64,000 bases of DNA, from assembly GCF_000702825.1 (NCBI RefSeq), contig NZ_JNKF01000012.1:372001-436000 (forward strand). Reading direction: 5' to 3'. Each line of letters begins with the position of its first letter. Within the stretch, counting starts at the first letter, position 1. A model generated the notes under the pieces. That model saw only the letters and a list, made by a program, of their open reading frames with translations. It was not told the origin of the DNA and did not search any database. A program made the translations under genes and the position numbers. Source of the DNA: Prevotella sp. P6B1. GTDB lineage: Bacteria; Bacteroidota; Bacteroidia; Bacteroidales; Bacteroidaceae. Shown one piece after another: positions 2 through 25,621 of the stretch.

Positions 2-1066
2 GCAGATGATATCCACACCGTGCGCAAACAGCATCTGTCGTTCGACAACTATCTCTACGCAGCCTATGAAGCATTTGCTGCCATCATCATGAACGACAGT
101 CAACTGAAACAGGTGGCCATTGAGGACTTTCGTTATGCAGATGAACAGTTCCAGCGTAAAGGCATTGACACCTTTAATATCATGATGGAACACAACTACA
201 ACACTTCGAAAGCCACATGGATGGCGGCAGCATCATGGTCGGCATCGATGCTATACAGACTAACAGGTGAGACAGTATACGCAGAAAAAGCAGCACGTTA
301 CATCCAATACACATTGGACTGCCAGGAACAGACAGGCCACTACACAGGTTACTTCTATCGCGACAAAACAAGAAAAGCTATCGTACACTATATCCATCAG
401 TCACGAGAGCAGTTACCCATACAGGCTCTTGTTGCTCTTTGCGAGGATCAGCCCACTCATACCGACTTTGGCCGATGGAAAAAAGCCATAACGCTTTACG
501 GACAATATCTAAAACACACAGCAACGGTGACACAGCCCTATGGAATGGCTCCCAGTGGTATCTACCAAAAAGAAGAATATTCAGACCATGACGGCTTTGA
601 CCGTCTGCACCTTTGGGCACCAAAGAATGCTCAACAACGTTTCAACTTCCAGTTGCAAGAAGGCATCAAAGTGGACGACAGTCATTTCATCCGCAGATTT
701 CCCATCTGGTTCAGTATCTTTAATGGCAACGAGGCCATTATACTCTCTACAGGCAAGGCAGCAGCTCTCTGCGGGAAATACCTAAACGACAAAGCCCTAT
801 TTGATATTGCCCGTGAGCAACTCTATTGGACAGTGGGCAAGAACCCTTTCTGTCAATCGCTCATCTATGGAGAAGGCCATCGTTATCCCCGACAGGACAG
901 TTTCTCATCAGGCGAATTAGTGGGTGAGATGCCTGTTGGAATACGCTCTATAGGAGATCACGACGTTCCCTATTTCCCAATGACAAATAATGCCTGCTAC
1001 AAGGAGGTATGGCTGACATCGGCAGGCAAGTGGTTATCTCTTATTGCAGACTTTTTGACCCCATGA
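2..1066 (+). CDS. GH9 family glycoside hydrolase, C-terminal part (5' truncated by window edge)
   Basis: The reading frame is already open at the first bases, so this is the 3' part of a longer gene; the GTG at 20 is probably internal. The visible ~354 residues look like the (alpha/alpha)6-barrel catalytic domain of glycoside hydrolase family 9. The C-terminal YWTVGKNPFCQSLIYGEGHR segment is the GH9 signature region, and NACYKEVWLTSAGKW carries the expected late catalytic Glu. GH9 enzymes are inverting cellulases or glucanases, but the family also contains exo-beta-D-glucosaminidases. The downstream amino-sugar kinase, deaminase and GH18 genes make a role on chito-oligosaccharides plausible, though this is inference. 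The stop codon overlaps the start of the next gene (ATGA), indicating translational coupling. Confidence 0.75.
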   Translation, partial: ADDIHTVRKQHLSFDNYLYAAYEAFAAIIMNDSQLKQVAIEDFRYADEQFQRKGIDTFNIMMEHNYNTSKATWMAAASWSASMLYRLTGETVYAEKAARYIQYTLDCQEQTGHYTGYFYRDKTRKAIVHYIHQSREQLPIQALVALCEDQPTHTDFGRWKKAITLYGQYLKHTATVTQPYGMAPSGIYQKEEYSDHDGFDRLHLWAPKNAQQRFNFQLQEGIKVDDSHFIRRFPIWFSIFNGNEAIILSTGKAAALCGKYLNDKALFDIAREQLYWTVGKNPFCQSLIYGEGHRYPRQDSFSSGELVGEMPVGIRSIGDHDVPYFPMTNNACYKEVWLTSAGKWLSLIADFLTP

Positions 1067-1926
1067 TACTTTGGTTTAGTATATTACTCAACGTCGTGCT
1101 TGTGATAGCCATTGCCAGATTCCATATTAAGAACCGGCAGTTGTTATCCATTGTACCTATGACGGCAGAGGCTGTTAAGGAGATACCTTCCAACACCAAA
1201 AAAAAGATTCTACTAATTGGAATGGATGAGGAAACGGAGACAGACCTGAAGGCCAACCTACAGATGGATTATGACCTGATCTTTATAAAAAATGGCCAGC
1301 AAGCCATCAGTATGATAGAAGACATTAAAATTGACCTGATCATCTCGGAATATCTGATGCAAGAGATGAGCGGCGACGAACTTTGCCATGCCATCAGGGC
1401 AAACACTGGTACATGCACGATACCAGTGGTATTCTTATCATCATTGTCCCACAGCGCCGATATTGTGTATGGACTGGAGGCTGGTGCCAGAGACTATATC
1501 ACCAAACCTTACGACATCACCATACTGAAGGCAAGAATAGACATAGTACTCAGCGAACATCATGATGGTAACATGCATGCTGATGAGCCGCAGTCTGTAA
1601 ACAATCTACAGGACCTGGAGTTCCTGCAAAGACTGGACAAAGTCATCAGAGTACATCTATCTAACAGCTATTTGCAGATAAATGACATCTGTAAGGAGAT
1701 GGGCATGAGCAGGACAGCTATGTTTAACAAGGTTAAGGCAGTGACAGGACATAGTCCAAACGACTATTTGAGAATATATCGACTCAACGAATCGAAGAGA
1801 CTATTAGAGGCAAAATTGTGGACAATAGCAGAAGTGGCTATCAAAGTGGGATATAATGATCCGAAATATTTTAGTACCTGTTTTAAAAAACAGTTTGGAT
1901 ATTCTCCTAGTAAAATCATCAAATAA
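1063..1926 (+). CDS. Membrane-anchored response-regulator-like protein (degenerate receiver + AraC-type HTH)
   Basis: The start at 1063 overlaps the GH9 stop as ATGA. It gives a 287-residue protein with an N-terminal hydrophobic segment (about residues 2-18), a receiver-like domain (about 45-165) and a C-terminal AraC/XylS helix-turn-helix domain (about 185-287, ending in a typical YNDPKYFSTCFKKQFGYSPS). It resembles the cytoplasmic end of a hybrid two-component system without the periplasmic sensor or histidine kinase. The receiver keeps the KP lysine (YITKPYD), but the usual phospho-acceptor Asp is Glu (DLIISEYLM) and the usual acidic pair after the first strand reads GM. It is therefore probably a pseudo-receiver working without phosphorylation. 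It is likely the local regulator of the surrounding amino-sugar locus; the ligand or partner is unknown. Confidence 0.8.
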   Translation: MILWFSILLNVVLVIAIARFHIKNRQLLSIVPMTAEAVKEIPSNTKKKILLIGMDEETETDLKANLQMDYDLIFIKNGQQAISMIEDIKIDLIISEYLMQEMSGDELCHAIRANTGTCTIPVVFLSSLSHSADIVYGLEAGARDYITKPYDITILKARIDIVLSEHHDGNMHADEPQSVNNLQDLEFLQRLDKVIRVHLSNSYLQINDICKEMGMSRTAMFNKVKAVTGHSPNDYLRIYRLNESKRLLEAKLWTIAEVAIKVGYNDPKYFSTCFKKQFGYSPSKIIK

Positions 1927-1948
1927 TCAATAAAATTATTAGCAAAAT

Positions 1949-2893
1949 ATGGAAACTTATTTGGGCTTAGACTTGGGTGGAACGAAACTCTTAATAGGAG
2001 AAGTTGATAAACAAGGCGTAATTTACAACCACAAGCGTTATGACTCGGGGTATTTCAATCAGCATGTGGCTTTCGACATTATCCGACGTTCTTTGGACGA
2101 CTACATTGAACAGGTAGGATGGTACAAGGAGAAGCCTGTGGCCATGGGTGTAGGACTAATAGGGCGTGTAGATTATGAGCAGGGCATCTGGCAGCAGATT
2201 GATCCAGACCGCACCTACCCGATGCCACTAGCACAGCAGTTGTCTGAGACGTATGGTATTCCCTGCTTCATCGACAACGACGTAAAGAGTGCCACACGGG
2301 CAGAGATGATATGGGGATATGGAAAGGTATCTGACAATTTCCTGTATATCAATGTAGGTACTGGTATCGCCGCTGGTATGGTCATCAATGGTCAGCAGAT
2401 ACGTGGTAGTCACTTTAATGCAGGCGAAGTGGGACATGTAAAAGTAGGGGTTCCCGTGGGCGTAAAATGTCCCTGTGGACGTATCGACTGTGTGGAGGCT
2501 ATTGCCTCTGGTATGGGATTCGACCGTTGTGCACGTCTGCTTCTGGGGCAATATGACACGTCGCTCCATATTCCATCAGTAAATGGTGAGCGGGTTGCCG
2601 TGAAAGATATCTTTGAGCTTTACGGACAGGATGATCCATTATGCAAGGTTCTGGTAGATAATGCGGCAGAAGCTTTGGCCAACTTGATTATGAACCTTGT
2701 CAGGATGACAGACCCAGACACAGTAGTCTTGGGTGGCGGAGTAGTAGCCGATGGCTTCATGCTGGAGCATATCGAGCATTATCTACATCCTGTTACCATG
2801 CGTTTTGTATCGAACGGCGTTGTACTAACCCAACTCGATCCGCAGTTCGTTGGATTGTTAGGTGCAGCGGCTATTTCCATGAATTCAAAATAA
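1949..2893 (+). CDS. ROK family sugar kinase (glucokinase / amino-sugar kinase type)
   Basis: A 314-residue ROK-family kinase that would phosphorylate a hexose with ATP in the cytoplasm. The N-terminal phosphate-binding motif LGLDLGGTKLLIGEV and the ROK zinc-binding signature KCPCGRIDCVE (residues about 170-180) are clear, as is the DNDVKSA segment carrying the catalytic Asp and the VLGGGV motif near the C-terminus. The length is normal. The gene lies 10 nt upstream of a glucosamine-6-phosphate deaminase, so glucosamine or N-acetylglucosamine is the likely substrate, although ROK kinases cannot be assigned between glucose, GlcNAc and GlcN from sequence alone. It appears co-transcribed with the regulator before it and the transporter after it. 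Confidence 0.85.
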   Translation: METYLGLDLGGTKLLIGEVDKQGVIYNHKRYDSGYFNQHVAFDIIRRSLDDYIEQVGWYKEKPVAMGVGLIGRVDYEQGIWQQIDPDRTYPMPLAQQLSETYGIPCFIDNDVKSATRAEMIWGYGKVSDNFLYINVGTGIAAGMVINGQQIRGSHFNAGEVGHVKVGVPVGVKCPCGRIDCVEAIASGMGFDRCARLLLGQYDTSLHIPSVNGERVAVKDIFELYGQDDPLCKVLVDNAAEALANLIMNLVRMTDPDTVVLGGGVVADGFMLEHIEHYLHPVTMRFVSNGVVLTQLDPQFVGLLGAAAISMNSK

Positions 2894-2903
2894 CTCCGAC
2901 TAT

Positions 2904-3644
2904 ATGTTTAAACTTAGCATTGTTGGTAATGAGGCTGCATTCGATTACACAGCCTCATTGCGTATTATTAATCAGATTATTGAAAAGCCTGAAAGTGTCA
3001 TCGGACTTTCAACAGGCAGGACAACTGGCAATATGCACCGCTTGGTCGTAGAAGCGTATCGCAGAAAACCGTTCGACGTCAGTCGAGTAACCTTCTTCGG
3101 TCTTGACGAAGTGATGAATGTGCCACACACCTATGCCGGTGCCTGTTATACCATGCTCAAAACTGAGATAGTGGATGGTTTGGGTATTGACGATGCTCAT
3201 TTCCTGATGCTACCCACAGAGAGTCATGACTGGGATGCTGATTGTCAGACTTTTGTCAGTCAACTGGAGCAACGTGGTGGCATCGACCTTTTGGTGCTTG
3301 GACTGGGAGAAAACGGCCATTTGGGCTTTAACCAGCCTGGTACGCCTTTCGATAGTGTTGCATGGACGACTCTGATGAATAAGGAACTTGAGGCACGCAT
3401 CAGACAAGAAACACAAACTCCTACTAACAAAACATTAGGTGGAGTGACATTAGGTATCAGGGATATTATGCACGCCCGTAGAATTGTACTTGTAGCTAAA
3501 GGCATCAACAAGGCAGAGATAGCACACCAGATGTTATATGGTCCTGTCACGACAGACGTTCCCGCCTCTATTTTGCAGCTTCATCCTAATTGTGAGTTCC
3601 TTTTGGATGATGCTGCCGCAAAATATGTAAAACCATTATACTGA
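2904..3644 (+). CDS. nagB: Glucosamine-6-phosphate deaminase
   Basis: A 246-residue member of the NagB/RpiA superfamily that converts glucosamine-6-phosphate to fructose-6-phosphate and ammonia. Recognisable parts are the phosphate-binding LSTGRTTGNM, the catalytic-region FFGLDEV and the strongly conserved LGLGENGHLGFNQPG. The length fits the stand-alone enzyme. Many Bacteroides relatives carry this domain fused to a C-terminal PIG-L (LmbE-like) domain; here that second half is encoded separately at 16197. The gene sits between a ROK kinase and an FHS transporter with gaps of 10 and 5 nt, so it is part of a sugar import, phosphorylation and deamination operon. Confidence 0.9.
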   Translation: MFKLSIVGNEAAFDYTASLRIINQIIEKPESVIGLSTGRTTGNMHRLVVEAYRRKPFDVSRVTFFGLDEVMNVPHTYAGACYTMLKTEIVDGLGIDDAHFLMLPTESHDWDADCQTFVSQLEQRGGIDLLVLGLGENGHLGFNQPGTPFDSVAWTTLMNKELEARIRQETQTPTNKTLGGVTLGIRDIMHARRIVLVAKGINKAEIAHQMLYGPVTTDVPASILQLHPNCEFLLDDAAAKYVKPLY

Positions 3645-3649
3645 ATAAT

Positions 3650-4870
3650 ATGACATCCAAGAATCAATCACAGGCCAACTATCTGGGGCCTTTTCTGACC
3701 ATGGTCTTTCTATTCTTGATTGTAGGATTCCTGACCACCGCCAATGGACAGTTCCAAGGGCCGCTCAAAGCTGCGCTCCTTTCTGAAACTGGGAATCTGA
3801 AGAATACTTTAGCCACACTCATCACGTTCTCGTGGTTCCTAGCCTATCCTGTATGTGGCAGTCTGGGCTCAAAATGGATTGTCAACTACGGCTATAAGGG
3901 TACGCTTATCCGCGGACTGTTGGTGATGATTACTGGTCTTCTGCTATTTTTCCTCTCTGCAAAGCTTTCCATGTTTTTCGTCTTCCTGTTAGGATCGTTT
4001 GTTGCAGGTGCGTCGGCAACTATACTCCAAGTGGTAATCAACCCCTACCTCACCGCCTGCAGTGTGAAAGGAACCCAGGCCGTACAACGCCTGGCAATCG
4101 GTGGAACAGCCAACTCCGTAGGAACAACGACAGCTCCTTATTTCGTGTCGGGCATCGTATTTGGCGGACTAGCATTGGAGGATATTCAAGCTTGCCAACT
4201 AATGATACCATTCCTGATGCTGGCAGCTATAGTCCTCCTTATCGTCATAGTGCTACTCCATCTATCACTACCCGACATTGAAGAAACCCATAACAAGGTC
4301 GGTGATAAACTAGAAAAGAGCGTATGGTCGTTCCCTCATCTGGTATACGGAGTCGTTTCAATTTTCTTCTATGTAGGTTGTGAGGTGTGTATTGGCACTA
4401 ACATCAATCTCTATGTTACTGAGGATTTTGGAATGCAGATATCAACTGTGACACTGATGGCAACACTCTACTGGGGCGGTCTGTTGGTGGGGCGTCTGTT
4501 TGGCAGTACACTCTGTTCGATACATCCGCGTACACAATTAACTTTCGCTACTATGATGGCAAGCTTACTAGTAGTATTCGCGATGATTATCAACAACCCC
4601 TGGATATTGGTGACCGTAGGCCTGTTTCATAGCATCATGTGGGGCGCCATATTTACTTTGTCTGTAGCCCAGTTAGGAAAATACACGTCAGCAGCCTCTG
4701 GTGTATTCATGATCGGTGTAGTGGGTGGTGCCATTCTACCACTCATACAAGGTTTTTTAGCAGACTGGATGGGAAACTGGCGCTGGTCGTGGAGCATTGT
4801 CCTTTTTGGAGAGTTAGTCATGCTACTCTATGCACGAGTAGGTTCGCGCGTCCATCAGACTGCAGAATAA
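3650..4870 (+). CDS. FHS-type MFS sugar transporter
   Basis: A 406-residue polytopic membrane protein of the major facilitator superfamily with about 12 hydrophobic segments. It starts with the arrangement usual in fucose/glucose-galactose (FHS) permeases of Bacteroidetes: a short soluble head, then GFLTTANGQFQGPLKAALL. The second half holds GCEVCIGTNINLY and YWGGLLVGRLFG, both typical of the FHS group. It would carry a monosaccharide across the inner membrane by proton symport. The kinase and nagB immediately upstream suggest glucosamine or N-acetylglucosamine (NagP-like role), but the substrate is inferred only. It is the last gene before a terminator-like inverted repeat. Confidence 0.85.
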   Translation: MTSKNQSQANYLGPFLTMVFLFLIVGFLTTANGQFQGPLKAALLSETGNLKNTLATLITFSWFLAYPVCGSLGSKWIVNYGYKGTLIRGLLVMITGLLLFFLSAKLSMFFVFLLGSFVAGASATILQVVINPYLTACSVKGTQAVQRLAIGGTANSVGTTTAPYFVSGIVFGGLALEDIQACQLMIPFLMLAAIVLLIVIVLLHLSLPDIEETHNKVGDKLEKSVWSFPHLVYGVVSIFFYVGCEVCIGTNINLYVTEDFGMQISTVTLMATLYWGGLLVGRLFGSTLCSIHPRTQLTFATMMASLLVVFAMIINNPWILVTVGLFHSIMWGAIFTLSVAQLGKYTSAASGVFMIGVVGGAILPLIQGFLADWMGNWRWSWSIVLFGELVMLLYARVGSRVHQTAE

Positions 4871-4922
4871 ATATTTCAACCATTTACCAAAGGCAGAAAG
4901 ATTAATCTTCGAGGTTTGTAAA

Positions 4923-4974
4923 ATGACATTTATCGTCTAAATGAACTTTTTTAGATGATAAATGTTATTTTTTA
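4923..4974 (+). terminator. Long inverted repeat with T-run after the transporter gene
   Basis: Left arm 4923-4941 and right arm 4950-4968 match at 17 of 19 positions around an 8-nt loop and are followed by six T residues. This would end the operon that starts upstream of the window. The remaining leader up to the SusC gene at 5076 is AT-rich and contains a weak -7-like CAATTTTG at 4999-5006. Confidence 0.6.
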
Positions 4975-5075
4975 AACCTTTTTTTTGTGGATAATCGTCA
5001 ATTTTGCAACCGCAACAATTATAAATACCGAAAACTTATTAACGCTAATGTTATTATTAATTCTTTAAATTACTG

Positions 5076-8000
5076 ATGGGAAAGTTATGCAAACTAAGTC
5101 TCCTCTTGTTGGCTTTGACGCTACGAGGAGTGTGCCTCGCACAAAACATTATCAACGTGCGAGGTTGTGTTACTGACGAGCAGAACGAACCGATTATCGG
5201 AGCCACTGTGCAAATCAAAGACAAATCGAAAGGTACAGTAACCGATGTCGGCGGCAATTACCTCTTGCCAGGAGTTACTAAAGGTACGACCCTGGTATTC
5301 TCGTATGTAGGCTGCAAGTCTGTGGAAATGGAGGCAACATCGAGTCCAATGAATGTTGTCTTAGTAGCAAACAATGAGATGCTGAACGAGCTGGTTGTCA
5401 TCGGCTATGGTCAGCAGCGCAAGGTCACTCTAACAGGTTCTGTATCTAATGTAAGCGGAAAGGAACTTCTGAAGTCGCCAGCAGCCTCTCTTGGAAATGC
5501 TCTCACAGGTAAACTTCCTGGTCTGCAGTCGGTGCAGTACACTGGTGTGCCTGGCGGTGACGACCCAGTCATTCGCATCCGTGGCATTGGTTCTTTCAAT
5601 AGTGCAGAGCCTCTTGTGCTGGTCGATGGCGTAGAGCGCGAATTCAGCCAGATAGATCCCAACGAGGTACAAGACATTTCTATTCTCAAAGATGCTTCTG
5701 CCACAGCCGTTTTCGGTGTGCGCGGGGCCAATGGTGTTATTCTCGTCACGACCCGTCGTGGTGAAATTGGCAAACCCACCATCACTTTGACGGCCTCAGC
5801 TGGACTGCAACAGATTTCCAGATTCCTTGAACCTGCAAACTCCTATGAGTACGCGACAGCATACAATCATGCACAGGAAGTGGAAGGAGTGGCCGAAGAT
5901 GGTTGGAAATTCTCGAAAGAGGCCATCCTGCACTGGAAAGCTATGGATATGTCTACAGTCTATCCAAGCACCAACTGGTTTAAATACCTAATGAACAATC
6001 ATGCCTGGCAAGAGCAATACAATATTAACGTATCAGGCGGTACAGAGCGTGCCCGTTATTTCGTTTCTGCTGGTATGCTCAATCAAAACGGGCTATTCAA
6101 GACTTTCAACCAAGGAGAAGACGCAAACTTCAAATACCGCCGTTATAACTTTCGTGCCAATCTGGATGTCGACCTATCCAAACTGAGCACTATCTCGATT
6201 GGTATCGGCGGACGTGTTGGCCGTCGTAACTCCATCGGTAATGGTGAGTATAATGGTCAGTCGGGCGTCTTTGGCGTTGAAGGTCTTCTCAACAATGGTA
6301 CACCTATGTCAGGCTACGGTCTTGATAACAACGGACGTCGTATTGTCAGCGATCCCGATTTGGTTAGCTCTGTAGGATCTGACGGACTCGGTCTTATCTA
6401 CGAGCATGGTTTTACAACTCAACGACAGAGTGTAGTGAATCTCGACTTGCAATACAAACTCAAGCTCGACTTTATTACCCAAGGTCTTGATTTCCGCATC
6501 AAGGGTTCCTACAACTCTGACTATACGCAACAAAAGGCACGTACCACAGGAGGCGGTATTAACTACAAGGCGACCATTGCTAAGGGCGAATTCAACGAAG
6601 ATGGTTCTCCAAAGATTGTTTATGTCCGTCAGGGCGACTCGTGGCCTCTCGGCTATAGTGAGTCAAAATGGGGTGGAAGAAACTGGTATGCAGAGGCAAG
6701 CCTCAACTATGCCCGCAAGTTTGGAGAGCATAATTTTGGTGGACTCATCCTCTATAATGAATCAAAAAACTACTATCCTGGGGGTGTGTATAATTCTATC
6801 CCTCGTGGCTATGTTGGAATGGTTGGACGTATCACTTACGACTACCAAACCAAGTATATGATAGATCTTAACATGGGTTACAATGGATCAGAGAACTTTG
6901 CCAGAGGAAAGCGCTTTGGTCTATTCCCATCCGCCTCTCTTGGCTGGATAGCCTCTTCCGAGAAATTCTGGGAACCCTTCCGCAGTATTGTATCTTATTT
7001 CAAGATTCGTGGCTCTATCGGAAAAGTAGGTAATGACCAAGGCATTGGCCGTTTTCTTTACCTACCTGGCACATGGCAGTTCTATACAAATAATGGCGGC
7101 GCGTGGTGGACCAACGACCGAACAGGAAACTTTGGTATCAACAACCCTTCATTCATGTCAGGTGCACGTGAGTCTACCAATGGTAATCCCGATGTTACTT
7201 GGGAAACAGCCACTAAACAGAACTATGGCTTCGATATACATTTCTTTGGAGACCGTTTGAGTTTTGGATTAGACTTCTTCTGGGAAGACCGTAAGAACAT
7301 TCTCGTCTCCAACGAGACAACTATTGCCGGAATTTCCGCACTCAAGCCAAGTTCTATTAATTTCGGTCGCGTCAAGAACCATGGTTACGAGATGACCATT
7401 CGCTGGGCCGACAAGATAGGTGAAGTAAGTTATTCTATCGCTCCAACCTTTGCCTTCGCCCGCAACAAGATTGTGGAAATGGCAGAAGTAAAGAAGGAAT
7501 TCCCACATATGTACCAGACAGGCCAGCCTGTAGGCCAGCCTTTCGGCTATGAATTCTTCGAGTTTTATGTACCTGGCCAAACCGAACAACACTACAAGGA
7601 CAAATATGGTGCCGACATGCCAGACCAACAAATCACACTTCGTCCAGGCGACAGTGTATTCGTAGATCTTACGGGCGATGGCAAAGTGGATGCCAACGAT
7701 GTACATGCCATCGGCTATAGCGATATTCCTGAGTACACAGGTAGCGTGAATGCTACAATCAACTGGAAAGGTCTTGACTTTTCTATGACCTGGGTAGGTG
7801 CCACTCACGTCAACCGCCAACTCAGTTCATTCTATACACCCGCCTTTGGTACCGGCAACCAGTCGATGCTTAACAAATGGGTCTACGACAATTCCTGGAC
7901 CGAGAACAATCCAGATGCTATTCTTCCACGTATATCTCTTGAGAAATCGGCACGTGAGCATAATGGCGCCCTTTCGTCGCCATGGATGGTCGATGCATCG

Positions 8001-8207: not shown

Positions 8208-8218
8208 CATTCAAGACA

Positions 8219-10186: not shown

Positions 10187-10220
10187 TTCAAATTAAACAT
10201 TTAAATAAGACTTGCAGAAT

Positions 10221-12998
10221 ATGAAAACAAATAGAATGTTGATTATTACAGCGGCGGTCTTTGCTCTCACGGCAAATGCGCAGGTAAAACTCAACGATAA
10301 AAACACAAATGCCTATGATCTGGGGTATGGTGTGGAGATTAGTCACTTTCTCAGCACAGCCTCATCAACAACTATCAGTGGCGAGGAATTGCAGCAGACT
10401 TCGGCAACAACTCTTGCCCAAGCCCTCTATGGACGGCTTCCTGGACTAACAGCTCTTTCAACAGGCGGTTTCTCGGGCGATGAGAACAAGGGAGCCTCAT
10501 TTAATATCAGAGGCTATCACACTCTCAACGACAAAAGTATACTCATACTCGTTGATGGTTACGAGCGCCCCATCGACCGTCTCAGCATAGAGGAGGTAGA
10601 GAGCGTCACCGTGCTCAAAGATGCCGCTGCTACAGCTCTTCTTGGCCACGAAGGCATCAATGGAGCCATACTGGTGAAGACAAAGCGTGGTACTAAAAGC
10701 AAGACACACATCAAGGCCAACTATAGTCATAAGTTCCTATTCAACCCGGAATTTGCAAATATGGCAGATGGCTATCAATATGCAAATGCTCTCAACCAAG
10801 CCCGACTCAACGATGGACTCACTGCTGCATATACCGAGCAGGAACTTAGTCTCTTCAAAAACGGCACTGATCCCTGTTTCTATCCAAACGTCAATTGGCG
10901 CGACCTTGCTTTCAGAAATAAGGCCGAGGAAGATCATGCATATCTGTCAATATATGGAGGAACAGACAAAGTAAAATACTATACCAACATCGATTACAGT
11001 GATGCCCGTGGCGCCCTCAAGGACACCAAACAGACCGACTACAATGCGCAGTTACGTCAATCGAAGGCTAACATTCGTACCAATCTCGACTTCAACCTCA
11101 CCAGCACGACACTCATGTCGGTAAACCTCTTTGGACTATTCCAAGAGACCAAGCGACCTTCTGACATCGGCGCCGATGATGCGACATATGCCATATACAG
11201 TCTGCCAGCAAGTGCCATCCCCTTCAAAACTACAACCGGCATTTGGGGAGGTAATGAGACTTATGGCGATTCGAACCCTATAGCAAAAATTCAGGAATCG
11301 GGTTTCTACAAGACCCATCAGCGTCAGCTGTGGGTTGATGCCAAGCTAACTCAAAAACTCGACTTCTTACTCAAGGGTCTGAGTTTATTTGTCAGTGCCG
11401 GCTATGCCAACTCTTCGATATACGCAGAAAACATGCATAAAGCTCACGAATATGGATACGAACGGTACACAGGTACCATTGGTGACATCAATAACGTAGC
11501 CCTGACCAAATTCGGCAATAAGGAGACCAACCTCACCTTCAGTAATTGGAATGACAGTCAATGGTGGAAAGCCAAATCAAATATAGGCATCAACTACCAG
11601 CATTCGTTCTTCAGTGATGACCACTTCAGCGCTTCTGCCATTTTCACAAATAGTGGTTCTAACATAGATGGTCGAGGTAACACCATCTATCGCCAGAATA
11701 TTATGGGAGCATTCCACTACGATTATCAGAATCGTTACATTGCCGACCTTATCCTTGCTGGCAATGGCTCCAACCGCACTTACCCGTCCAAGTGGGCATT
11801 CTCACCCACCTTGTCGCTCGGCTGGATCTACGCCAATACTAATGAAGCCCTGATTAACTACGGAAAACTACGTGCATCAGCAGGTATTCAGCATACTGAC
11901 TATATGCCAACCTATGGTATGTGGCTGCCCACATGGGATGCTACGCATGGTTATGTCATTATTGGCAATAACTATAATGCCACATGGGGTGCATCGCTTG
12001 GCTCATTCCCAACGACAGATTTCTCACAGGAGACATCAACAAGTTTTAATCTTGGAACCGATCTTCGACTGGCAAATGTCCTTGACCTCACGATTGATGC
12101 ATTTTACCAACTTCGCAGTCACATCATGCTCTCTGCAAGCAATGAAAATTCATCGGTGGTCGGTATTCAATCGTCGTACAATGATGTGGGCGAAGTGAGA
12201 AGTTACGGATTTGAGACCAGTATGAAATATGCAAAACAGATCATTTCCGACCTCCATCTCAACATTGGCGCCACATTCGCGTGGGCACGCAATGAGGTAA
12301 CCAGATATATCGGAACGCCCACTTATCCGCTACTCGACCCTGTAAGGCATCGTGTAAACGAAGCATGGGGACTCAAGTCGGCAGGTTTTTTTAAGAACCA
12401 AGCTGACGTTGATGCCAGCTATCGTCAGGAATTTTCTATCGTAACTCCAGGTGACATCAAGTATCAAGACCTCAATGACGACAAGGTCATCAATGCATTC
12501 GACATGACAAGTCTTGATGGCGCTACCGATATACCAGAAATTAACTATGCATTCAATCTTGGCATAGAATATAAAGGAATTGGTCTGAACGCATGGTTCC
12601 AGGGAACAGGCAACTGCATGAAAGCTCTTCCGTCGGCAATCTGGGGCGGCATGGCTAACAACGGCAATCTATCAGTAGACTATTACAACAACTGCTGGGA
12701 CATGGCTGGCGACAATGCCCTTTATCCTAGATTGACAACTCAGAACAGCAGTAACAACAACCAGTCAAGCGATATTTGGATCAAACCCGTACATTTTCTG
12801 AAGATGCGTAACATTGAACTTTACTACAAAATTCCTACAAGGCTACTCTCACACCTATCACTTTCTGAAGCAAAGTTCTATGTTCAAGGCGAAAACCTTC
12901 TCTCCTTCGACAACATCAGCACTATGGATGCAGAGATACTCTCTACAGCATACCCCATGTTCAAAGGTGTCAACATAGGTATCACATTAACTTTCTAA
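10221..12998 (+). CDS. SusC-like TonB-dependent transporter lacking the N-terminal regulatory-like domain (second pair)
   Basis: About 925 residues from the ATG at 10221, which gives a clean signal peptide (MKTNRMLIITAAVFALTANA); an upstream TTG at 10212 is not needed. The protein goes almost directly from the signal peptide into the plug domain (ATTLAQALYGRLPG, ILILVDGYERP, VTVLKDAAATALLGHEG). It therefore lacks the carboxypeptidase-regulatory-like domain present in the other three SusC proteins of this window. The beta-barrel follows and ends GVNIGITLTF. It is paired with the SusD gene 11 nt downstream and is probably co-transcribed with the preceding SusCD pair. Confidence 0.9.
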   Translation: MKTNRMLIITAAVFALTANAQVKLNDKNTNAYDLGYGVEISHFLSTASSTTISGEELQQTSATTLAQALYGRLPGLTALSTGGFSGDENKGASFNIRGYHTLNDKSILILVDGYERPIDRLSIEEVESVTVLKDAAATALLGHEGINGAILVKTKRGTKSKTHIKANYSHKFLFNPEFANMADGYQYANALNQARLNDGLTAAYTEQELSLFKNGTDPCFYPNVNWRDLAFRNKAEEDHAYLSIYGGTDKVKYYTNIDYSDARGALKDTKQTDYNAQLRQSKANIRTNLDFNLTSTTLMSVNLFGLFQETKRPSDIGADDATYAIYSLPASAIPFKTTTGIWGGNETYGDSNPIAKIQESGFYKTHQRQLWVDAKLTQKLDFLLKGLSLFVSAGYANSSIYAENMHKAHEYGYERYTGTIGDINNVALTKFGNKETNLTFSNWNDSQWWKAKSNIGINYQHSFFSDDHFSASAIFTNSGSNIDGRGNTIYRQNIMGAFHYDYQNRYIADLILAGNGSNRTYPSKWAFSPTLSLGWIYANTNEALINYGKLRASAGIQHTDYMPTYGMWLPTWDATHGYVIIGNNYNATWGASLGSFPTTDFSQETSTSFNLGTDLRLANVLDLTIDAFYQLRSHIMLSASNENSSVVGIQSSYNDVGEVRSYGFETSMKYAKQIISDLHLNIGATFAWARNEVTRYIGTPTYPLLDPVRHRVNEAWGLKSAGFFKNQADVDASYRQEFSIVTPGDIKYQDLNDDKVINAFDMTSLDGATDIPEINYAFNLGIEYKGIGLNAWFQGTGNCMKALPSAIWGGMANNGNLSVDYYNNCWDMAGDNALYPRLTTQNSSNNNQSSDIWIKPVHFLKMRNIELYYKIPTRLLSHLSLSEAKFYVQGENLLSFDNISTMDAEILSTAYPMFKGVNIGITLTF

Positions 12999-13009
12999 TA
13001 TAAGAATCT

Positions 13010-14704
13010 ATGAACAATATAAAAAATGCTTTTATAGGTATAGCGGCAGTAGTCCTTGCCAGCTGTGCCGACTTAGATTATAACGAAGCATCGAGTCGCG
13101 ATGAAAAATGGACCTTCAACAGCCCTATCAATGGCGTCAAGGCCCTTGTCTACGATGTCTATGCACAAATCCCAAGTGAATTCAAAGATGACCTCTACGG
13201 TAATGGCGCCATGATAGCCAGTGCAACAGATGAGGCAGAGTTCTCACTCTCCATCTCGCCCATCCACAATTATTACAATGGTGGATGGAATCCTTCGAAT
13301 CCTTTCAGCGACACATGGAACAGGTCATATCGTGCCATTACCCAGATACATATGTACCTGGAACGCATCCATAAGATTGACTTGTCGGATTATGAATATG
13401 CTCCCGATTATCAGAACATGGTGCAACAGTTTGAGATATTCCCTTATGAGCTTCGTTTCCTCCGTGCCTATTTCTATTTTGAACTGGTACGTGCCTACGG
13501 CGATGTACCTCTGGTTACCACTACCCTTACCAACGAGCAGGCGAACAATGTGGAACGTACCCCAGCCAACGATATTTTCAAGTTTATCATTGACGAATTG
13601 GATGCCGTAGCCGAATATCTACCTGTATCGTATAACGACATTCCCGGTCAGGAAATCGGTCGTGCCACCCGTGGTGCCGCACTCGCTTTGAAAGCACGCG
13701 CACTTCTTTACCAAGCGTCACCATTGTTTAATACAAATGGTGACAAGCAACTATGGAAAAAGGCGGCGGCTGCCAGCAAAGTCATCATTGACAACGCACA
13801 GCGATGGGGCTATAAACTCAGCAACTATGCCAACCTATGGGGCCATGACACATTCACCAACCCAGAATTCATCTTCGTCCTCGGCACTCAGGCAAGCAAC
13901 ACCTTCGAACGCAACAACTACCCTGTAGGCGTAGAGAACGGCAACTCGGGTAACTGTCCTACACAGGCACTGGTAGACGCATACGAATATCAGTCTGATG
14001 GCATGACATTCAAAGAGAGATATCCTAATGATATAGATGTAACCACCGAGAACCCCTACGATGGTCTTGACCCTCGTTTTGAACTTACAGTTGTCAAGAA
14101 CGGCGATCTCTGGCCTGCCAATACTGCTCAGCAGATTTTCATCGAGACTTATCAGAATGGTTTCAATGGTGCACCCAAATATGGTGCAACGCCAACGGGC
14201 TATTACCTGAAGAAGTTTGTTGATGGCAACTGTATCACCACAACCAACAACCCAACCTCCACACGTCACAATTGGATTGTGATGCGTCTGGCCGAGGTTT
14301 ATCTCAACTATGCAGAGGCCATGTACAACTATTACGGTAATGCCGATGAACAAGGTGAATTTGGTATGTCAGCAAACGAGGCCATCAACGTGCTCCGTAA
14401 CCGTCCAGACATCATGATGCCAGAGTTCCAAGGCAGTAAAGGGTTTGAAGAGCGTTATATGCGTGAACGTATGGTTGAACTTGCCTTTGAAGGCCAGCGT
14501 TTTTGGGATGTACGTCGCTGGAAGAAAGGTAATGATTTCTTCAAAAATGTAGCTGTAGCAGATTTCTGGATCAATGAAAACGGGCACCTAATTCTCAACA
14601 GAGTAACCAAAGCCCGCCAGTGGGACGAAAAATACTATTTCTACCCCATTCCACAATCTGAAATTCAGAAAAACAGTCATCTGAAACAGAACCCCAATTG
14701 GTAA
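13010..14704 (+). CDS. SusD/RagB-family surface lipoprotein (second pair)
   Basis: A 564-residue SusD homologue with lipobox VLASC (Cys at about residue 19). It has the conserved RFLRAYFYFELVRAYGDVPLV motif of the TPR-like region, the late ERMVELAFEGQRFWDVRRW motif and a C-terminal PIPQSEIQKNSHLKQNPNW, which is diagnostic for the family. It would cap the second SusC channel. It is followed by a 30-nt gap and a putative additional surface-binding lipoprotein. Confidence 0.94.
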   Translation: MNNIKNAFIGIAAVVLASCADLDYNEASSRDEKWTFNSPINGVKALVYDVYAQIPSEFKDDLYGNGAMIASATDEAEFSLSISPIHNYYNGGWNPSNPFSDTWNRSYRAITQIHMYLERIHKIDLSDYEYAPDYQNMVQQFEIFPYELRFLRAYFYFELVRAYGDVPLVTTTLTNEQANNVERTPANDIFKFIIDELDAVAEYLPVSYNDIPGQEIGRATRGAALALKARALLYQASPLFNTNGDKQLWKKAAAASKVIIDNAQRWGYKLSNYANLWGHDTFTNPEFIFVLGTQASNTFERNNYPVGVENGNSGNCPTQALVDAYEYQSDGMTFKERYPNDIDVTTENPYDGLDPRFELTVVKNGDLWPANTAQQIFIETYQNGFNGAPKYGATPTGYYLKKFVDGNCITTTNNPTSTRHNWIVMRLAEVYLNYAEAMYNYYGNADEQGEFGMSANEAINVLRNRPDIMMPEFQGSKGFEERYMRERMVELAFEGQRFWDVRRWKKGNDFFKNVAVADFWINENGHLILNRVTKARQWDEKYYFYPIPQSEIQKNSHLKQNPNW

Positions 14705-14734
14705 AAACATTCAATCAAATATCAAACAAGAAAG

Positions 14735-16093
14735 ATGATGAAAAAACATATTATAGACCATCTGGCCACAAGTCTTGCATTGCTATCCATCATAACGACA
14801 ACCTCATGCAGCGATAACAATACGGCAGACACAAACCAGCTTTTTGAGGTAAAGTCTGTCCTCCCAACCAAAGTTATGGAAGGTCAAGTTATCACCATCA
14901 CTGGTACAGGCCTTAGCGAAGCCACTTCAGTGGTGTTCCCTAGAAATATCGTAGTAAACAACATTGCCAAAGTTGGCAACGGATATATTACAGTTACCAC
15001 ACCCGCAGGCATCGCAGCAGCAGGCGGAATCGTCACTATTGAAGCTCATGGAGAAACGACAGAGGCTCCCATGCCCATAACTGTCGGCAAGCCCACCCCC
15101 ACACGCGTAGCACCACTTGACCAGGAGATCAAGATTAACGAGTGTATTGAGGTGTATGGCGATGACCTTGAATTCATCACAAAGGCATATTTCCCTGGTA
15201 AAGACGGCAATGACGTGGTAGTAGAAGCAAGCGATTTCAAGCGTAAGGCAACAGGTTCACTTCACGTCTATTCCCCAATGGGTATTAAAGCCGGACCAAG
15301 TCAGATAATCCTCGAAGATTGCAGCGGCCAGAAGTACACGTTGCCAGAGGTAACACTATCTGACGAGATTGCTGGTGGAGATGAAGCAGCGAGCGGTGAA
15401 AGATACGTTCCCATTTGGGAGGATGAAGTGTATATTTATGATTGGGCCAACTGGCAATATCTGACATCAGACCAACTGAATCTTGATGGTATTCAGATTC
15501 GCGAAGGCCTTATGATGCGACTTACCTTCGACAATCCCGATGGCGCCAGTGTATGTGTATGTGATGCCAATTGGGGTACGCCTGATGTCGACGGCAATGG
15601 CAATAACACAGTATGGGTTGGAGCAGGTACCACCGAACTCGAGTTCCCAATCTCTCAAGGTATGGTAGAGACTCTGAAAGCAGGTGGGGGCATCATTATC
15701 GGTGGAGGCAACTACACCCTAAAGAAGATAGAGTTATTCCGCGAATATCCAACACTCTGGTTGGGTGAATATACCACAGGCTGGTGGTGGTATCTCCCAG
15801 CATCCGAGCTCAATCTCTCAGCCATCACGCCAGAGGCTGGTCAGATCATCAGGTTCACGTTTACCCACCACGATGCCCCTCAGACATTCTGTTTGTGCGA
15901 TGGTTGGTGGGGAGCGCCTTACATCCGCGACGGCGGTGAAAGCGACAACAACATTACACTTGCTGCAGGTGAAGACTTCTTGGAATTCGAAATTTCAGAG
16001 GGGATGGCGACAACAATGAACAGCGGAACGGAAACCGCTCTCATTATCGGCGGCGACATCACCATCACAAAGATTCAGATAAAAACAGACTAG
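14735..16093 (+). CDS. IPT/TIG-domain surface glycan-binding lipoprotein
   Basis: A 452-residue lipoprotein (lipobox TTTSC near residue 26). Two IPT/TIG immunoglobulin-like modules occupy roughly residues 35-210 (VLPTKVMEGQVITITGTGLS is typical). The C-terminal part contains two related Trp-rich modules: one about 225-335 with YDWANWQYLTSDQLNLDG and VCVCDANWGTPDVDG, the other about 345-452 with TTGWWWYLPASELNLSAI and FCLCDGWWGAPYIRDGG. These look like a tandemly duplicated carbohydrate-binding module. It occupies the SusE/SusF-like position of the locus and ends just before a strong terminator. Binding to chitin or chito-oligosaccharide is inferred from context. Confidence 0.75.
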   Translation: MMKKHIIDHLATSLALLSIITTTSCSDNNTADTNQLFEVKSVLPTKVMEGQVITITGTGLSEATSVVFPRNIVVNNIAKVGNGYITVTTPAGIAAAGGIVTIEAHGETTEAPMPITVGKPTPTRVAPLDQEIKINECIEVYGDDLEFITKAYFPGKDGNDVVVEASDFKRKATGSLHVYSPMGIKAGPSQIILEDCSGQKYTLPEVTLSDEIAGGDEAASGERYVPIWEDEVYIYDWANWQYLTSDQLNLDGIQIREGLMMRLTFDNPDGASVCVCDANWGTPDVDGNGNNTVWVGAGTTELEFPISQGMVETLKAGGGIIIGGGNYTLKKIELFREYPTLWLGEYTTGWWWYLPASELNLSAITPEAGQIIRFTFTHHDAPQTFCLCDGWWGAPYIRDGGESDNNITLAAGEDFLEFEISEGMATTMNSGTETALIIGGDITITKIQIKTD

Positions 16094-16137
16094 ACTCTGA
16101 AAAGACGTCATAGACTGACATTTGTAAACATGAAAAG

Positions 16138-16174
16138 TCCGTTAGAGAACAAAAGTTTCTCAACGGATTTTTTT
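16138..16174 (+). terminator. Rho-independent terminator after the SusCD operon
   Basis: A stem formed by TCCGTTAGAGAAC and GTTTCTCAACGGA around an AAAA loop is followed by seven T residues. It lies 44 nt after the IPT/TIG gene and 22 nt before the PIG-L gene, so that gene would depend on read-through or on a promoter not evident here. Confidence 0.85.
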
Positions 16175-16196
16175 AAACAAAGCAATATTATAAACT

Positions 16197-17333
16197 ATGG
16201 ATTTAAATCTCACAAACAGAATTCAAAAGCCCAACCATTCGCTACGCCGTGCAGTAGTCGAATTATGCCAGAAGGTTGGCAAGCCACTACTGAAACTTTC
16301 CACAAAAGATTATGTGGACAACGGACTTGAGCATCTTGTCAGAGAGTACAACGGACAAGTAGGATTGGCAAATATTGAGGTATTTAATGAATTACAACAC
16401 ACCATTACAGGTTGGCCTGGTGGTAAGCCTTACGTTGATGACACAACCCGACCAGAACGTGCCATGCCCTACCCCAAACGAGTTATAGTTTTCTCTCCTC
16501 ACCCCGATGACGACGTCATCTCCATGGGCGGCACTATCCGACGTCTGATACAACAATGTCACGACGTACATATCGCCTACGAAACCAGTGGGAATATAGC
16601 CGTAGGCGATGAGGAAGTGATACGTTTTATGCATTTTGTCAATGGTTTCAACAAAATCTTTACCAATGACAGTAATGATGTTATCAAGCATAATTACCTA
16701 AGTATAAAGGCATTTCTGAAGAACAAGACAGAAGATGAGCCTGACAACGAAACCATATTGAAACTAAAAGGACTGATCAGGCGCGGTGAAGCACGTCTGG
16801 CCTGTGCCTACGATGGTATTAACAGCGACCATATCCACTTTCTTGACCTGCCATTCTATGAAAGCGGGAAGATAGAGAAACTGCCAATGACCGAACAAGA
16901 CGTCCTCCCCATCCAAGCATTACTCTCTAAAATAAAGCCTCATCAAATCTATATAGCTGCTGACTTAGCCGATCCTCATGGTACCCATAAAAAATGCACA
17001 GATGCCGTACTGGCAGCTATTGATGAGGAACGGAAGAAGGAAGCTACATGGCTAAAGGGCTGTCGGGTATGGATGTATCGCGGAGCCTGGGCAGAGTGGG
17101 ACGTAGCAGATATCGACATGTGTGTACCGATGAGTCCTGAGGAGCTCCGCGAGAAACGGAATGCCATCTTACGCCACCAGAGTCAAATGGACAGTGCACC
17201 GTTCCTTGGCAACGACGAGCGCCTGTTTTGGCAACGTGCCGAAGATCGCAATCGGGCTACCGCCAACATTTACGATGCACTTGGGCTGGCCTGCTACGAG
17301 GCTATGGAAGCATTTGTAGAATATAAATTATAA
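16197..17333 (+). CDS. PIG-L (LmbE-like) family deacetylase-like protein
   Basis: A 378-residue cytoplasmic protein (no signal peptide) with the PIG-L zinc-binding motif FSPHPDDDVISMGG at about residue 100 and a later DPHGTHKKC, which matches the HxxH/HxxT-type second metal motif of the family. PIG-L enzymes remove N-acetyl groups from GlcNAc-containing substrates. The protein resembles the C-terminal half of the long Bacteroides proteins annotated as glucosamine-6-phosphate deaminase, including the linker QHTITGWPGGKP. Here it is separated by about 12.5 kb from the stand-alone nagB. No nagA is visible in the window, so this protein could supply the deacetylation step; that is a hypothesis. 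Confidence 0.8.
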   Translation: MDLNLTNRIQKPNHSLRRAVVELCQKVGKPLLKLSTKDYVDNGLEHLVREYNGQVGLANIEVFNELQHTITGWPGGKPYVDDTTRPERAMPYPKRVIVFSPHPDDDVISMGGTIRRLIQQCHDVHIAYETSGNIAVGDEEVIRFMHFVNGFNKIFTNDSNDVIKHNYLSIKAFLKNKTEDEPDNETILKLKGLIRRGEARLACAYDGINSDHIHFLDLPFYESGKIEKLPMTEQDVLPIQALLSKIKPHQIYIAADLADPHGTHKKCTDAVLAAIDEERKKEATWLKGCRVWMYRGAWAEWDVADIDMCVPMSPEELREKRNAILRHQSQMDSAPFLGNDERLFWQRAEDRNRATANIYDALGLACYEAMEAFVEYKL

Positions 17334-17361
17334 AAATATTTATAATACGAATAATAAATTG

Positions 17362-17369
17362 TATCTTTG
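17362..17369 (+). promoter_or_regulatory. Bacteroidetes -7 box (TATCTTTG) upstream of the GH18-ThuA gene
   Basis: A perfect TAnnTTTG element lies 22 nt before the ATG at 17391. It overlaps the TTG that would otherwise extend the reading frame, which argues for the downstream start. No clear TTTG at -33 is seen. Confidence 0.6.
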
Positions 17370-17390
17370 CAAACAATAATGATAAACAAT

Positions 17391-19112
17391 ATGAAAAGAG
17401 AACAGATTAGAAAAGGTATCTGGTTAGTATTGATGCTACTTTACAGCATCGGACAAGTAAAGGCTGCTGAGAAGGTCGTGGTTGCCTATGTGACATCGTG
17501 GACGGAAACCATCCCCGACCCAACGGTGATGACACATATCAACTATGCTTTCGGACATGTTAACGAGATGTCCGATGGCGTACGCATAGATAACCCTGAC
17601 CGTCTGCGCAAGATAGTGACACTTAAAAAGAAGAATCCAAAGCTGAAGGTTCTTCTCTCCATCGGAGGCTGGGGTAGCGGACGTTTCAGCGAGATGGCGA
17701 AAACAGACGTGACACGACTTTCGTTTGCCAAAAGTTGTAGAAGGGTTATAGAAGAGTTTAGCATTGATGGTATCGATATCGACTGGGAATATCCCACTCA
17801 GTCGTCGGCAGGTATCTCCTCATCTCCTCATGATACAAGCAACTTCACCCTGCTAATGCGTGACCTGAGACAACAGTTAGGCGACAAGCTGCTGACCTGT
17901 GCCACAATTGCCAGCGGCGAGTATATCGACTTTCGCAATTGCATCCAGTATTTAGATATGGTAAACGTAATGTCGTACGACATGGGGAATCCACCCTATC
18001 ATCATTCCGCTCTTTATCCTTCGGAAATCACAAATTGGATGACTACTTCAGCTGCCATCGAAGCGCATCTGAAATCAGGTGTGCCACAAGACAAGCTGGT
18101 GATGGGCATCCCGCTCTATGGTCGCGGTAAGCGAGGATACACTACAGAGCCCGACAGCACCCAAAAAGTAACAGAACACTGGCACGAGCAGTCGATGGTT
18201 CCATATTTTGTGGATGACAAAGGCGAGCTGGTAATAGGGTTTGAGAATGAGCGTTCTATCGGCATCAAGTGCCAATACATCACCGACCATCGTCTACGTG
18301 GTGCCATGTACTGGGAATACGGCGATGATCATCAAGAAAAGTTGCGAAATACAATCTGCAGGATTCTTATGCATGGAGAGAACGGACCATATACAGCCAA
18401 CTATGCAGGCAATAGAATCCGCTTCCGCACTTTGCTCATCTGGGATCCTTCTGCCGAACCTGCCCATGTAGAATTCGACAAGCAAGCCATCCGCTTTTTC
18501 CATAAGTTATCGTATGGAGAGGGCTTCACATACGATGTCAGGACCTCATGCCCTACCAGTCTTGATACACTCAAGCAGTATGATGTAGTGGTTATGCTGA
18601 ATAGTCTGCCCCATGAAAAAAAGGGGCGTAAAGCCTTCGAGCAGTATATGGAGCAAGGAGGTGGGTGGATTGGTTTCCATGCCACAGGCTATAATGATGC
18701 CAACACCCATTGGCCGTGGCTGAACAAATTCTTAGGCTGTGGTTCATTTCTCAGCAATAACTGGCCACCACAATCAGCCTTGTTGGATGTCGAGACGCGG
18801 CACCATCCTGTCACCCGTACGCTCCCCAATGAGTTTGTTGCCCCAGCAAGCGAGTTCTACCAATTCTCACCTTCTCCCCGTGTCAATAAGGACGTAGAGG
18901 TTCTCATCAGCATCTCGCCAAAGAACTATCCCTTCGGCATAAAGGATATCGTCACCCACGGTGATTTTCCCATCGTATGGACTAACAAAAAATACCGTAT
19001 GGTCTATCTGAACATGGGACATGGCGATGAGGGGTTCATTGATGCTACCCAGAACCTGCTCTTCACAAATGCTTTTCGATGGGTGGCAAGTAATAAGTTG
19101 AGAACATATTAA
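17391..19112 (+). CDS. GH18 glycosidase fused to a C-terminal ThuA-like domain
   Basis: The ATG at 17391 is chosen because it gives a normal signal peptide (to about residue 26, VKAAEK) and lies downstream of the -7 box. Residues about 28-325 form a GH18 barrel: THINYAFGHV, LLSIGGWG, the catalytic DGIDIDWEYP (acid Glu about residue 133) and MSYDMGNPPYHHSA. Family 18 comprises chitinases and endo-beta-N-acetylglucosaminidases. Residues about 345-570 form a ThuA-like domain with a class I glutamine-amidotransferase-like fold (DVVVMLNSLPHEKKGR, GGGWIGFHATGYND, YRMVYLNMGHGDEG). ThuA domains occur in sugar-utilisation enzymes of unclear chemistry. The catalytic domain has no added carbohydrate-binding module. 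Confidence 0.85.
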   Translation: MKREQIRKGIWLVLMLLYSIGQVKAAEKVVVAYVTSWTETIPDPTVMTHINYAFGHVNEMSDGVRIDNPDRLRKIVTLKKKNPKLKVLLSIGGWGSGRFSEMAKTDVTRLSFAKSCRRVIEEFSIDGIDIDWEYPTQSSAGISSSPHDTSNFTLLMRDLRQQLGDKLLTCATIASGEYIDFRNCIQYLDMVNVMSYDMGNPPYHHSALYPSEITNWMTTSAAIEAHLKSGVPQDKLVMGIPLYGRGKRGYTTEPDSTQKVTEHWHEQSMVPYFVDDKGELVIGFENERSIGIKCQYITDHRLRGAMYWEYGDDHQEKLRNTICRILMHGENGPYTANYAGNRIRFRTLLIWDPSAEPAHVEFDKQAIRFFHKLSYGEGFTYDVRTSCPTSLDTLKQYDVVVMLNSLPHEKKGRKAFEQYMEQGGGWIGFHATGYNDANTHWPWLNKFLGCGSFLSNNWPPQSALLDVETRHHPVTRTLPNEFVAPASEFYQFSPSPRVNKDVEVLISISPKNYPFGIKDIVTHGDFPIVWTNKKYRMVYLNMGHGDEGFIDATQNLLFTNAFRWVASNKLRTY

Positions 19113-22338: not shown

Positions 22339-22363
22339 TATTGTTTTAGAATTATTGATGATG

Positions 22364-25605: not shown

Positions 25606-25621
25606 TTAAGCATACAGAATT

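Follow-up and report, generated by a model that had tools for sequence, protein, structure and literature searches.

A 64,000-nucleotide stretch of the Prevotella sp. P6B1 genome, referred to here as the window, contains a probable locus for chitin utilisation that encodes a free-standing deacetylase of the PIG-L/LmbE family. The window corresponds to C12:372001-436000 of an assembly that is 3.61 Mb in length and 99.86% complete. The deacetylase gene (16197-17333, plus strand) codes for 378 amino acids without a signal peptide. Its product was identified by matches to NF002557 and PF02585, an HPDDD motif, and an LmbE fold, and is proposed here to replace NagA, the N-acetylglucosamine-6-phosphate (GlcNAc-6-P) deacetylase. 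Among named organisms, its nearest relatives come from Prevotella ruminicola KHT3 and P. aff. ruminicola Tc2-24, which places this rumen bacterium with the Xylanibacter/P. ruminicola type.

Genes on the plus strand between 1063 and 19112 code for a response regulator-AraC protein, a ROK kinase, a NagB-like protein, a major facilitator superfamily (MFS) transporter, SusC, SusD, a second SusC and SusD, a SusE-like protein, the PIG-L deacetylase, and a GH18-ThuA fusion, followed by a GH18 gene on the minus strand. A previous reading of this DNA from its letters alone (the sequence-only reading) had named GH18 genes, a PIG-L protein, and a ROK kinase; profile matches confirm all three, together with the MFS transporter and two SusC/SusD pairs. 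The first pair (5076-10186, plus strand; SusC 5076-8207, SusD 8219-10186) is 92% identical in KHT3, and the second (10212-14704, plus strand; SusC 10212-12998, SusD 13010-14704) is 85-87% identical. The SusE-like surface protein (14735-16093, plus strand) has a TIG domain scoring 20.8 bits, just below the cut-off of 20.9. Between this gene and the deacetylase gene is a terminator-like hairpin with a T tail (16130-16176, plus strand; -17.6 kcal/mol, z -6.33), which is not among the elements listed by a simple terminator scan. The intergenic gap is 103 bp including the hairpin in the window genome; KHT3 has no such gap, with 3 bp at this position. The GH18-ThuA fusion (17379-19112, plus strand) was identified by domain matches and is predicted to be exported based on a signal-like N-terminus. 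Upstream of it, at 17362, is a TAnnTTTG motif that we take to be promoter-like. The minus-strand GH18 chitinase (19174-20367), identified by a domain match, is also predicted to be exported from the hydropathy of its N-terminus. It has 397 amino acids, shorter than its KHT3 counterpart of 623, and its tail resembles what we take to be type IX secretion sorting signals.

The ROK-family sugar kinase (1949-2893, plus strand; PF00480, 185.3 bits) is a candidate N-acetylglucosamine (GlcNAc) or glucosamine (GlcN) kinase. It matched 13 NCBIfam models, none at cut-off, and its specificity is not fixed by them. The sequence-only reading had also placed nagB in the locus. A NagB-superfamily protein is indeed encoded at 2904-3644 (plus strand), with equivalents of E. 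coli D72 and H143 kept, but it is a divergent phosphosugar isomerase/deaminase that falls below the cut-off of all eight models matched (best, 167.8 bits of 271 for galactosamine-6-phosphate isomerase), including curated NagB models (163.3 of 326 and 131.7 of 236.9 bits). The bona fide nagB is present elsewhere in the genome as one copy (419.9 bits, cut-off 236.9). Glutamine replaces E. coli E148 in all four NagB-like proteins from neighbourhoods of the GH9 gene described below (window 2904-3644, L181:5442-6215, L182:6627-7586, and L190:80-817), which perhaps form a distinct subfamily. The MFS sugar transporter (3650-4870, plus strand) is GluP/NagP-like, with 183.2 bits to gluP (cut-off 202.55) and 130.6 bits to NagP (cut-off 625).

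The block is syntenic in the sister strain KHT3. Gene products in shared order are GH16 (55% identity), GH5 (88%), ThuA-GH9 (77%), the response regulator (70%), ROK (93%), the NagB-like protein (77%), MFS (84%), SusC/D (85-92%), and the SusE-like protein (82%), followed by PIG-L, GH20, GH18, and GH18-ThuA. KHT3 has an extra CotH-type gene between GH16 and GH5, and its PIG-L gene overlaps GH20. The parts of a chitin polysaccharide utilization locus (SusC/D pairs, GH18, GH20, transporter, and regulator) are all present in the KHT3 block, and all but GH20 are in the window. The substrate is probably fungal-wall chitin.

Origin of the deacetylase in a NagB fusion family

The window PIG-L protein passes PF02585 (62.2 bits, cut-off 28.2) and aligns to positions 285-651 (367 positions) of NF002557, a NagB+PIG-L fusion family with 653 profile positions. 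Scores are 604.5-605.9 bits for this protein and 625.1-626.3 bits for a second copy in the same genome, relative to a curated cut-off of 384. The match begins at profile position 284-285, and the N-terminal NagB domain is absent. The family, also PRK02122, is annotated as 'glucosamine-6-phosphate deaminase-like protein'. The window protein is thus the C-terminal half of a family named for its deaminase half, without that half. The HPDDD motif is present in all 78 stand-alone PIG-L proteins that were checked. In a fold comparison, the 20 best rows were LmbE-type (Z 12.3-13.5), from a model with a middling mean predicted local distance difference test score of 64.6. Among the 50 rows listed by VIA-align there was no NagA-type structure, a result that is no test of NagA likeness.

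We surveyed three samples for this family: an order draw of 149 genomes, a family draw of 121 genomes, and the best 80 PIG-L loci of a species-level genome collection. The NF002557 cut-off was passed in 36 genomes of the order draw, 35 of them with the fusion and the window genome (G000) alone with the C-terminal half only. The same cut-off was passed in 53 genomes of the family draw (50 with the fusion; G000, G222, and G233 with the half). The best 80 loci comprise 76 stand-alone and four fused forms, including seven loci without an open reading frame under the overlap filter that were classed by position instead.

The NagB halves of 62 fusions were compared at the positions of E. coli NagB D72 and H143 (motifs MDEY and DGH), read against the NagB of the window genome; we take both residues to be catalytic. 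The set of 62 is not random: it holds the best-scoring fusions for which loci were available, with 29 of the 35 order-draw fusions, a further 29 among the 50 of the family draw, and four from genome contigs, and without L038, which was dropped. The D/H pair is kept in 15, both residues are changed in 46, and one residue is changed in the remaining fusion. Y/N accounts for 41 of the 47 changed pairs and S/N for three, and M/H, Y/I, and Y/S occur once each. In the order draw, where 29 of the 35 fusion genomes were compared, a separate nagB (>200 bits) was found in 2 of 15 genomes with a D/H fusion versus 13 of 14 with a changed pair (Fisher p 2e-5). All 29 of the 50 family-draw fusions that were examined are changed, and 27 of these 29 genomes have a separate nagB. 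The intact NagB half therefore seems to substitute for NagB, which points to GlcN-6-phosphate (GlcN-6-P) as the natural product of the PIG-L half.

A phylogenetic tree was constructed with 104 of 141 rows, after thinning the stand-alone rows from 79 to 42. Stand-alone PIG-L proteins form one group (SH-like approximate likelihood ratio test support of 100) that is nested among Prevotellaceae fusions. The closest partner of the window protein is the copy in the KHT3 locus; the second copy lies with X. ruminicola D31d. Judged by alignment and tree, the window protein goes back to a NagB+PIG-L fusion common in Bacteroidales, of which it is the C-terminal half. The simplest reading is that the ancestor was bifunctional, converting GlcNAc-6-P to fructose-6-phosphate, and that its deaminase half later became redundant.

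Distribution of nagA, GH20, and murQ

The sequence-only reading was correct that neither GH20 nor nagA occurs in the window, and searches were extended to the whole genome. A profile search did not find nagA in the window genome; the best match is a dihydroorotase, with 23.6 bits relative to the TIGR00221 cut-off of 225.65. Amidohydro_1 (PF01979) matched in two places, the dihydroorotase gene and a short 35-bit match at C10:47902. A hidden nagA was rejected, since none was found with the nagA model or PF01979 (the C10:47902 match was left unidentified). Nor was nagA found in KHT3, or at E <= 1e-10 in any of the 36 PIG-L genomes tested (34 stand-alone and two fusion; 36 of the 80 loci).

The genome does have GH20, as a single gene on another contig. 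It begins 32 bp downstream of the second PIG-L gene (L009:11503-12642). Because the GH20 of this genome follows a PIG-L gene, and because the KHT3 locus holds GH20, its absence from the window is local and no feature of the pathway. Of the 76 stand-alone loci, 35 have GH20 immediately downstream of PIG-L, and three more (L086, L109, and L111) have it directly upstream. In P. aff. ruminicola Tc2-24 (G222, locus L078), a stand-alone PIG-L gene comes straight after GH20, a LacI/AraC-type regulator, and a GH2 protein that has an Ig-fold domain of exo-glucosaminidases.

Across the family draw, nagA was detected in 41 genomes at E <= 1e-30 (38 over the cut-off), and 10 genomes of the order draw were over the cut-off. 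The 121 family-draw genomes divide into 28 with PIG-L only, 16 with nagA only, 25 with both, and 52 with neither. The product of the MurQ reaction is GlcNAc-6-P, and murQ was found in 40 of these genomes (PIG-L only, 11; nagA only, 8; both, 13; neither, 8). PIG-L or nagA is present in 32 of the 40 genomes with murQ versus 37 of 81 without it (p 0.0004). Among nagA-less genomes, murQ is present in 11 of 28 with PIG-L versus 8 of 52 without (p 0.026). Within the genus, two members of the draw have a stand-alone PIG-L, the window genome and G222; murQ was found in both, and in none of the five remaining members. The window genome should therefore make GlcNAc-6-P and need some deacetylase for it. 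One genus, g139 (G155, G183, G205, G224, G241, and G256), has murQ with neither nagA nor PIG-L found, and a third GlcNAc-6-P deacetylase is possible there.

The GH9 gene and other parts of the window

A GH9 open reading frame is located at the window edge (2-1066, plus strand). The sequence-only reading was right that a GH9 gene is present, but the frame in the window is only the 3' third (354 of 990 amino acids) of a ThuA-CelD_N-GH9 gene that begins 1.9 kb upstream of the window. The full gene stands directly behind a SusC/D-GH16-GH5 locus of beta-glucan type. Its product is predicted to be exported from a hydrophobic N-terminus and passes PF00759 with 54.8 bits (cut-off 27.7). Catalytic motifs (Asp, GGWHDAGD, in the full protein; Glu, CYKEVW) are both kept in aligned orthologues, an alignment in which the window row is the C-terminal part only. 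Profile scores for J30 (62.1 bits), 3h7l (56.9), CelD (56.8), 5dgq (54.5), and 6gdt (48.7) fail to tell exo-glucosaminidases from endoglucanases. The GH9 family does include exo-glucosaminidases, and published exo-GH9 structures offer no readable GlcN determinant in the available part of the source (PMC6096475). The exo-acting GH9 enzymes of Vibrionaceae (VC0615, PBPRA0520, and VP2484) share the catalytic Asp and Glu and amino-sugar gene surroundings with the window GH9, which differs from them in being predicted to be exported and in being fused to ThuA.

The GH9 stop codon overlaps the ATG of the response regulator-AraC gene (1063-1926, plus strand), and the same overlap occurs in the KHT3 homologue. 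The encoded regulator lacks a kinase domain, carries a hydrophobic segment at its N-terminus, and resembles the C-terminal part of a hybrid two-component sensor. Successive gaps of 22, 10, and 5 bp separate the regulator, ROK, NagB-like, and MFS genes. From this overlap and these gaps, the five genes are operon-like. The association of GH9 with ROK and NagB genes suggested by the sequence-only reading is supported here. The grouping, which also takes in the MFS gene, is real and is kept in KHT3 and, in part, in other genera.

GH9 matches at E <= 1e-100 were identified in 11 of 251 genomes of the family. Within the genus, the window genome is the only one with a match among the 17 members listed, and KHT3 has one too. 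Ten other genomes have a match, and we compared 10 neighbourhoods from nine of them, all but G253. GH18-ThuA directly adjoins GH9 in four of these loci, nine have a separate ThuA-like gene next to GH9 or close by (one just 25% identical), and three include a NagB-like gene in the stretch. PIG-L is absent from all 10, which are outside the group of the window genome and KHT3. Gene order in G157 is DUF5009, response regulator-AraC, ROK, GH18-ThuA, GH9, ThuA, ROK, NagB-like, and MFS. Such neighbourhoods indicate that GH9 is tied to amino-sugar genes independently of the deacetylase. The DUF5009 membrane protein at the head of the G157 cassette (L181:14289-15488) belongs to a family that we take to be related to NagX/HGSNAT acetyltransferases. 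It would fit acetylation of periplasmic glucosamine before uptake, a role that is described for NagX in part of PMC9007349.

The rest of the window holds more glycan loci (20662-35072 and 43981-63386), with SusC/D genes accompanied by GH30 and DUF5121/5125/5016, two GH3 genes, GH43, a glucoamylase-like gene with SusC/D, and two DUF6377 proteins. A cluster of TPR, ankyrin-repeat, DUF6973, and RHS-repeat proteins at 46437-53690 is possibly a polymorphic-toxin type region.

Proposed pathway, alternatives, and meaning

Exported GH18 enzymes would cut chitin outside the cell, and the two SusC/D pairs would import the oligosaccharides. A periplasmic GH20, encoded on the other contig in the window genome, would free GlcNAc, which the MFS carrier, as the candidate transporter, would move into the cytoplasm for phosphorylation by the ROK kinase, the candidate for that step. 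The window PIG-L and its paralogue beside GH20 would then deacetylate a substrate that is most likely GlcNAc-6-P, and the separate true NagB would yield fructose-6-phosphate. In the lineage, catalytic residues of the NagB half of the two-domain enzyme would have been lost first and the half then shed. Membership in a NagB-fused family favours a reaction adjoining that of NagB (GlcNAc-6-P to GlcN-6-P) over one on chitobiose. We consider it probable that PIG-L is a cytoplasmic GlcNAc-6-P deacetylase in the place of NagA, within a chitin locus, with its NagB half decayed and then shed. A chitin route that lacks NagA and relies on PIG-L had been suggested by the sequence-only reading and is supported here, since nagA was found neither in the nearly complete window genome nor in the 36 PIG-L genomes.

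Several observations weigh against this assignment. To our knowledge, no activity is known for any member of the NagB-fused PIG-L family. Completeness figures are not stated for the 36 genomes tested for nagA. The two genes occur together in 25 of the 121 family-draw genomes and so are not exclusive there, where the amidohydrolase could be an N-acetylgalactosamine-6-phosphate deacetylase. Two genus-mates with the fusion (G203 and G239) have no murQ match, and 8 of the 40 murQ genomes, six of one genus and one 56% complete, have neither deacetylase. In 41 of the 76 stand-alone loci (two at contig ends), PIG-L is not immediately followed by GH20. The branch leading to the window PIG-L is 0.2, versus 0.016 for the GH20-paired copy. 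The closest solved folds (chitobiose deacetylase, BshB, and MshB) are level at Z 13.1-13.5, so fold rank does not pick a substrate. Finally, Fisher tests ignore relatedness, and on the tree the link between the D/H pair and nagB comprises two independent transitions only, both in the expected direction and too few for significance. We regard this link as a consistent pattern and not as statistical proof.

The main rival is that PIG-L acts in the cytoplasm on free GlcNAc, removing its acetyl group ahead of phosphorylation, with ROK as a glucosamine kinase. The lack of a signal peptide, the pairing with GH20, and the absence of nagA fit this sequence of steps equally well, and the models leave ROK specificity free. 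However, it leaves murQ-derived GlcNAc-6-P without a deacetylase in the window genome, and the fusion to NagB halves whose active site is intact (15 of 62) better suits a directly adjacent step; we judge it unlikely. It is less likely still, and in our view improbable, that PIG-L acts on another amino-sugar derivative, such as a cofactor or wall precursor, and that GlcNAc is not used as a carbon source. PIG-L/LmbE enzymes have many substrates (BshB, MshB, and teicoplanin deacetylase are among the top structures), the HPDD region has weak matches to BshB models (25.3 and 28.6 bits), and roughly half of the stand-alone PIG-L genes have no GH20 neighbour. Against this stand the recurrent pairing with GH20 and the chitin locus, the NagB fusion, and the lack of nagA. 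The order proposed in the sequence-only reading, in which PIG-L deacetylates chitobiose, GH9 cuts it as an exo-glucosaminidase, and a kinase and NagB finish, draws on the chitobiose deacetylase Dac among the nearest structures, the exo-glucosaminidases within GH9, the operon-like setting of GH9 and its adjacency to GH18-ThuA elsewhere, and the single block shared by GH9 and PIG-L in KHT3 and the window genome, but it was rejected as the main explanation and is very improbable, since PIG-L (both copies without a signal peptide) and GH9 (with a signal-like N-terminus) appear from hydropathy to be in different compartments, GH20 exists in the genome and is paired with the same PIG-L family, PIG-L is missing from the 10 outside GH9 loci, and PIG-L relatives are fused to NagB and not to a glycosidase.

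NagA (TIGR00221, amidohydrolase superfamily) shares with PIG-L the proposed reaction and place in the pathway, but the two families are unrelated. The Dac pathway of Thermococcales shares the PIG-L/LmbE fold, the HPDD motif, and amino-sugar catabolism by a PIG-L enzyme, but sequence similarity between Dac and the window protein is just 25 bits over 49 residues. The likeness to this archaeal scheme drawn by the sequence-only reading also fails at the second enzyme, which is the GH35 GlmA and not a GH9 (PMC6566704, in part); here, GH9 is predicted to be exported and GH20 is the partner. The closest described system is the chitin locus of Flavobacterium johnsoniae, which, in the available part of PMC5127042, shares two SusC/D pairs, GH18, GH20 beside 'NagB', an inner-membrane transporter, and a regulator. 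In that source NagA is predicted elsewhere in the genome, and an attempt to express the 'NagB' failed. The window genome differs in having GH20 outside the locus (inside in KHT3), a free PIG-L, and no multimodular ChiA seen in the window. A literature search confined to listings and selected passages in PubMed Central (PMC) found no assignment of the PIG-L family to GlcNAc-6-P. The words '6-phosphate', 'NagB', and 'Bacteroid' were not found in an LmbE review (PMC4101496), and the available part of PMC2693436 has nothing on such an assignment. A comparison of GlcNAc genes in gut bacteria sets NagA apart from AgaA and, as far as available, names no PIG-L replacement (PMC5583593), and the available part of the GapMind work describes NagX and no PIG-L (PMC9007349). 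What we propose as new is to assign a known reaction to an unrelated family of enzymes, one whose forms make up a clear evolutionary series.

For the order as a whole, we lean, by somewhat less than for the window protein, toward Bacteroidales having a second, unrelated GlcNAc-6-P deacetylase. It would have begun as a NagB+PIG-L enzyme replacing NagA and NagB. The NagB half would often have decayed (perhaps to sensing of GlcN-6-P or GlcNAc-6-P) once a separate nagB was present, and would have been shed in rumen Prevotella/Xylanibacter, leaving a free deacetylase paired with GH20. In the textbook view, NagA commits amino sugars to catabolism and cell-wall sugars to recycling, and a genome without it can be taken as unable to use GlcNAc. 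If PIG-L performs this step, many Bacteroidales genomes would be re-read, as the family passes its cut-off in 53 of 121 family-draw genomes, 28 of which have no nagA, and in 36 of 149 order-draw genomes. Pathway gaps would close, and the widespread 'deaminase' label would change, as Bacteroidales proteins labelled 'glucosamine-6-phosphate deaminase' would often be deacetylases. The series, grading from a bifunctional enzyme through a pseudoenzyme fusion to a free enzyme, would then be open to direct testing.

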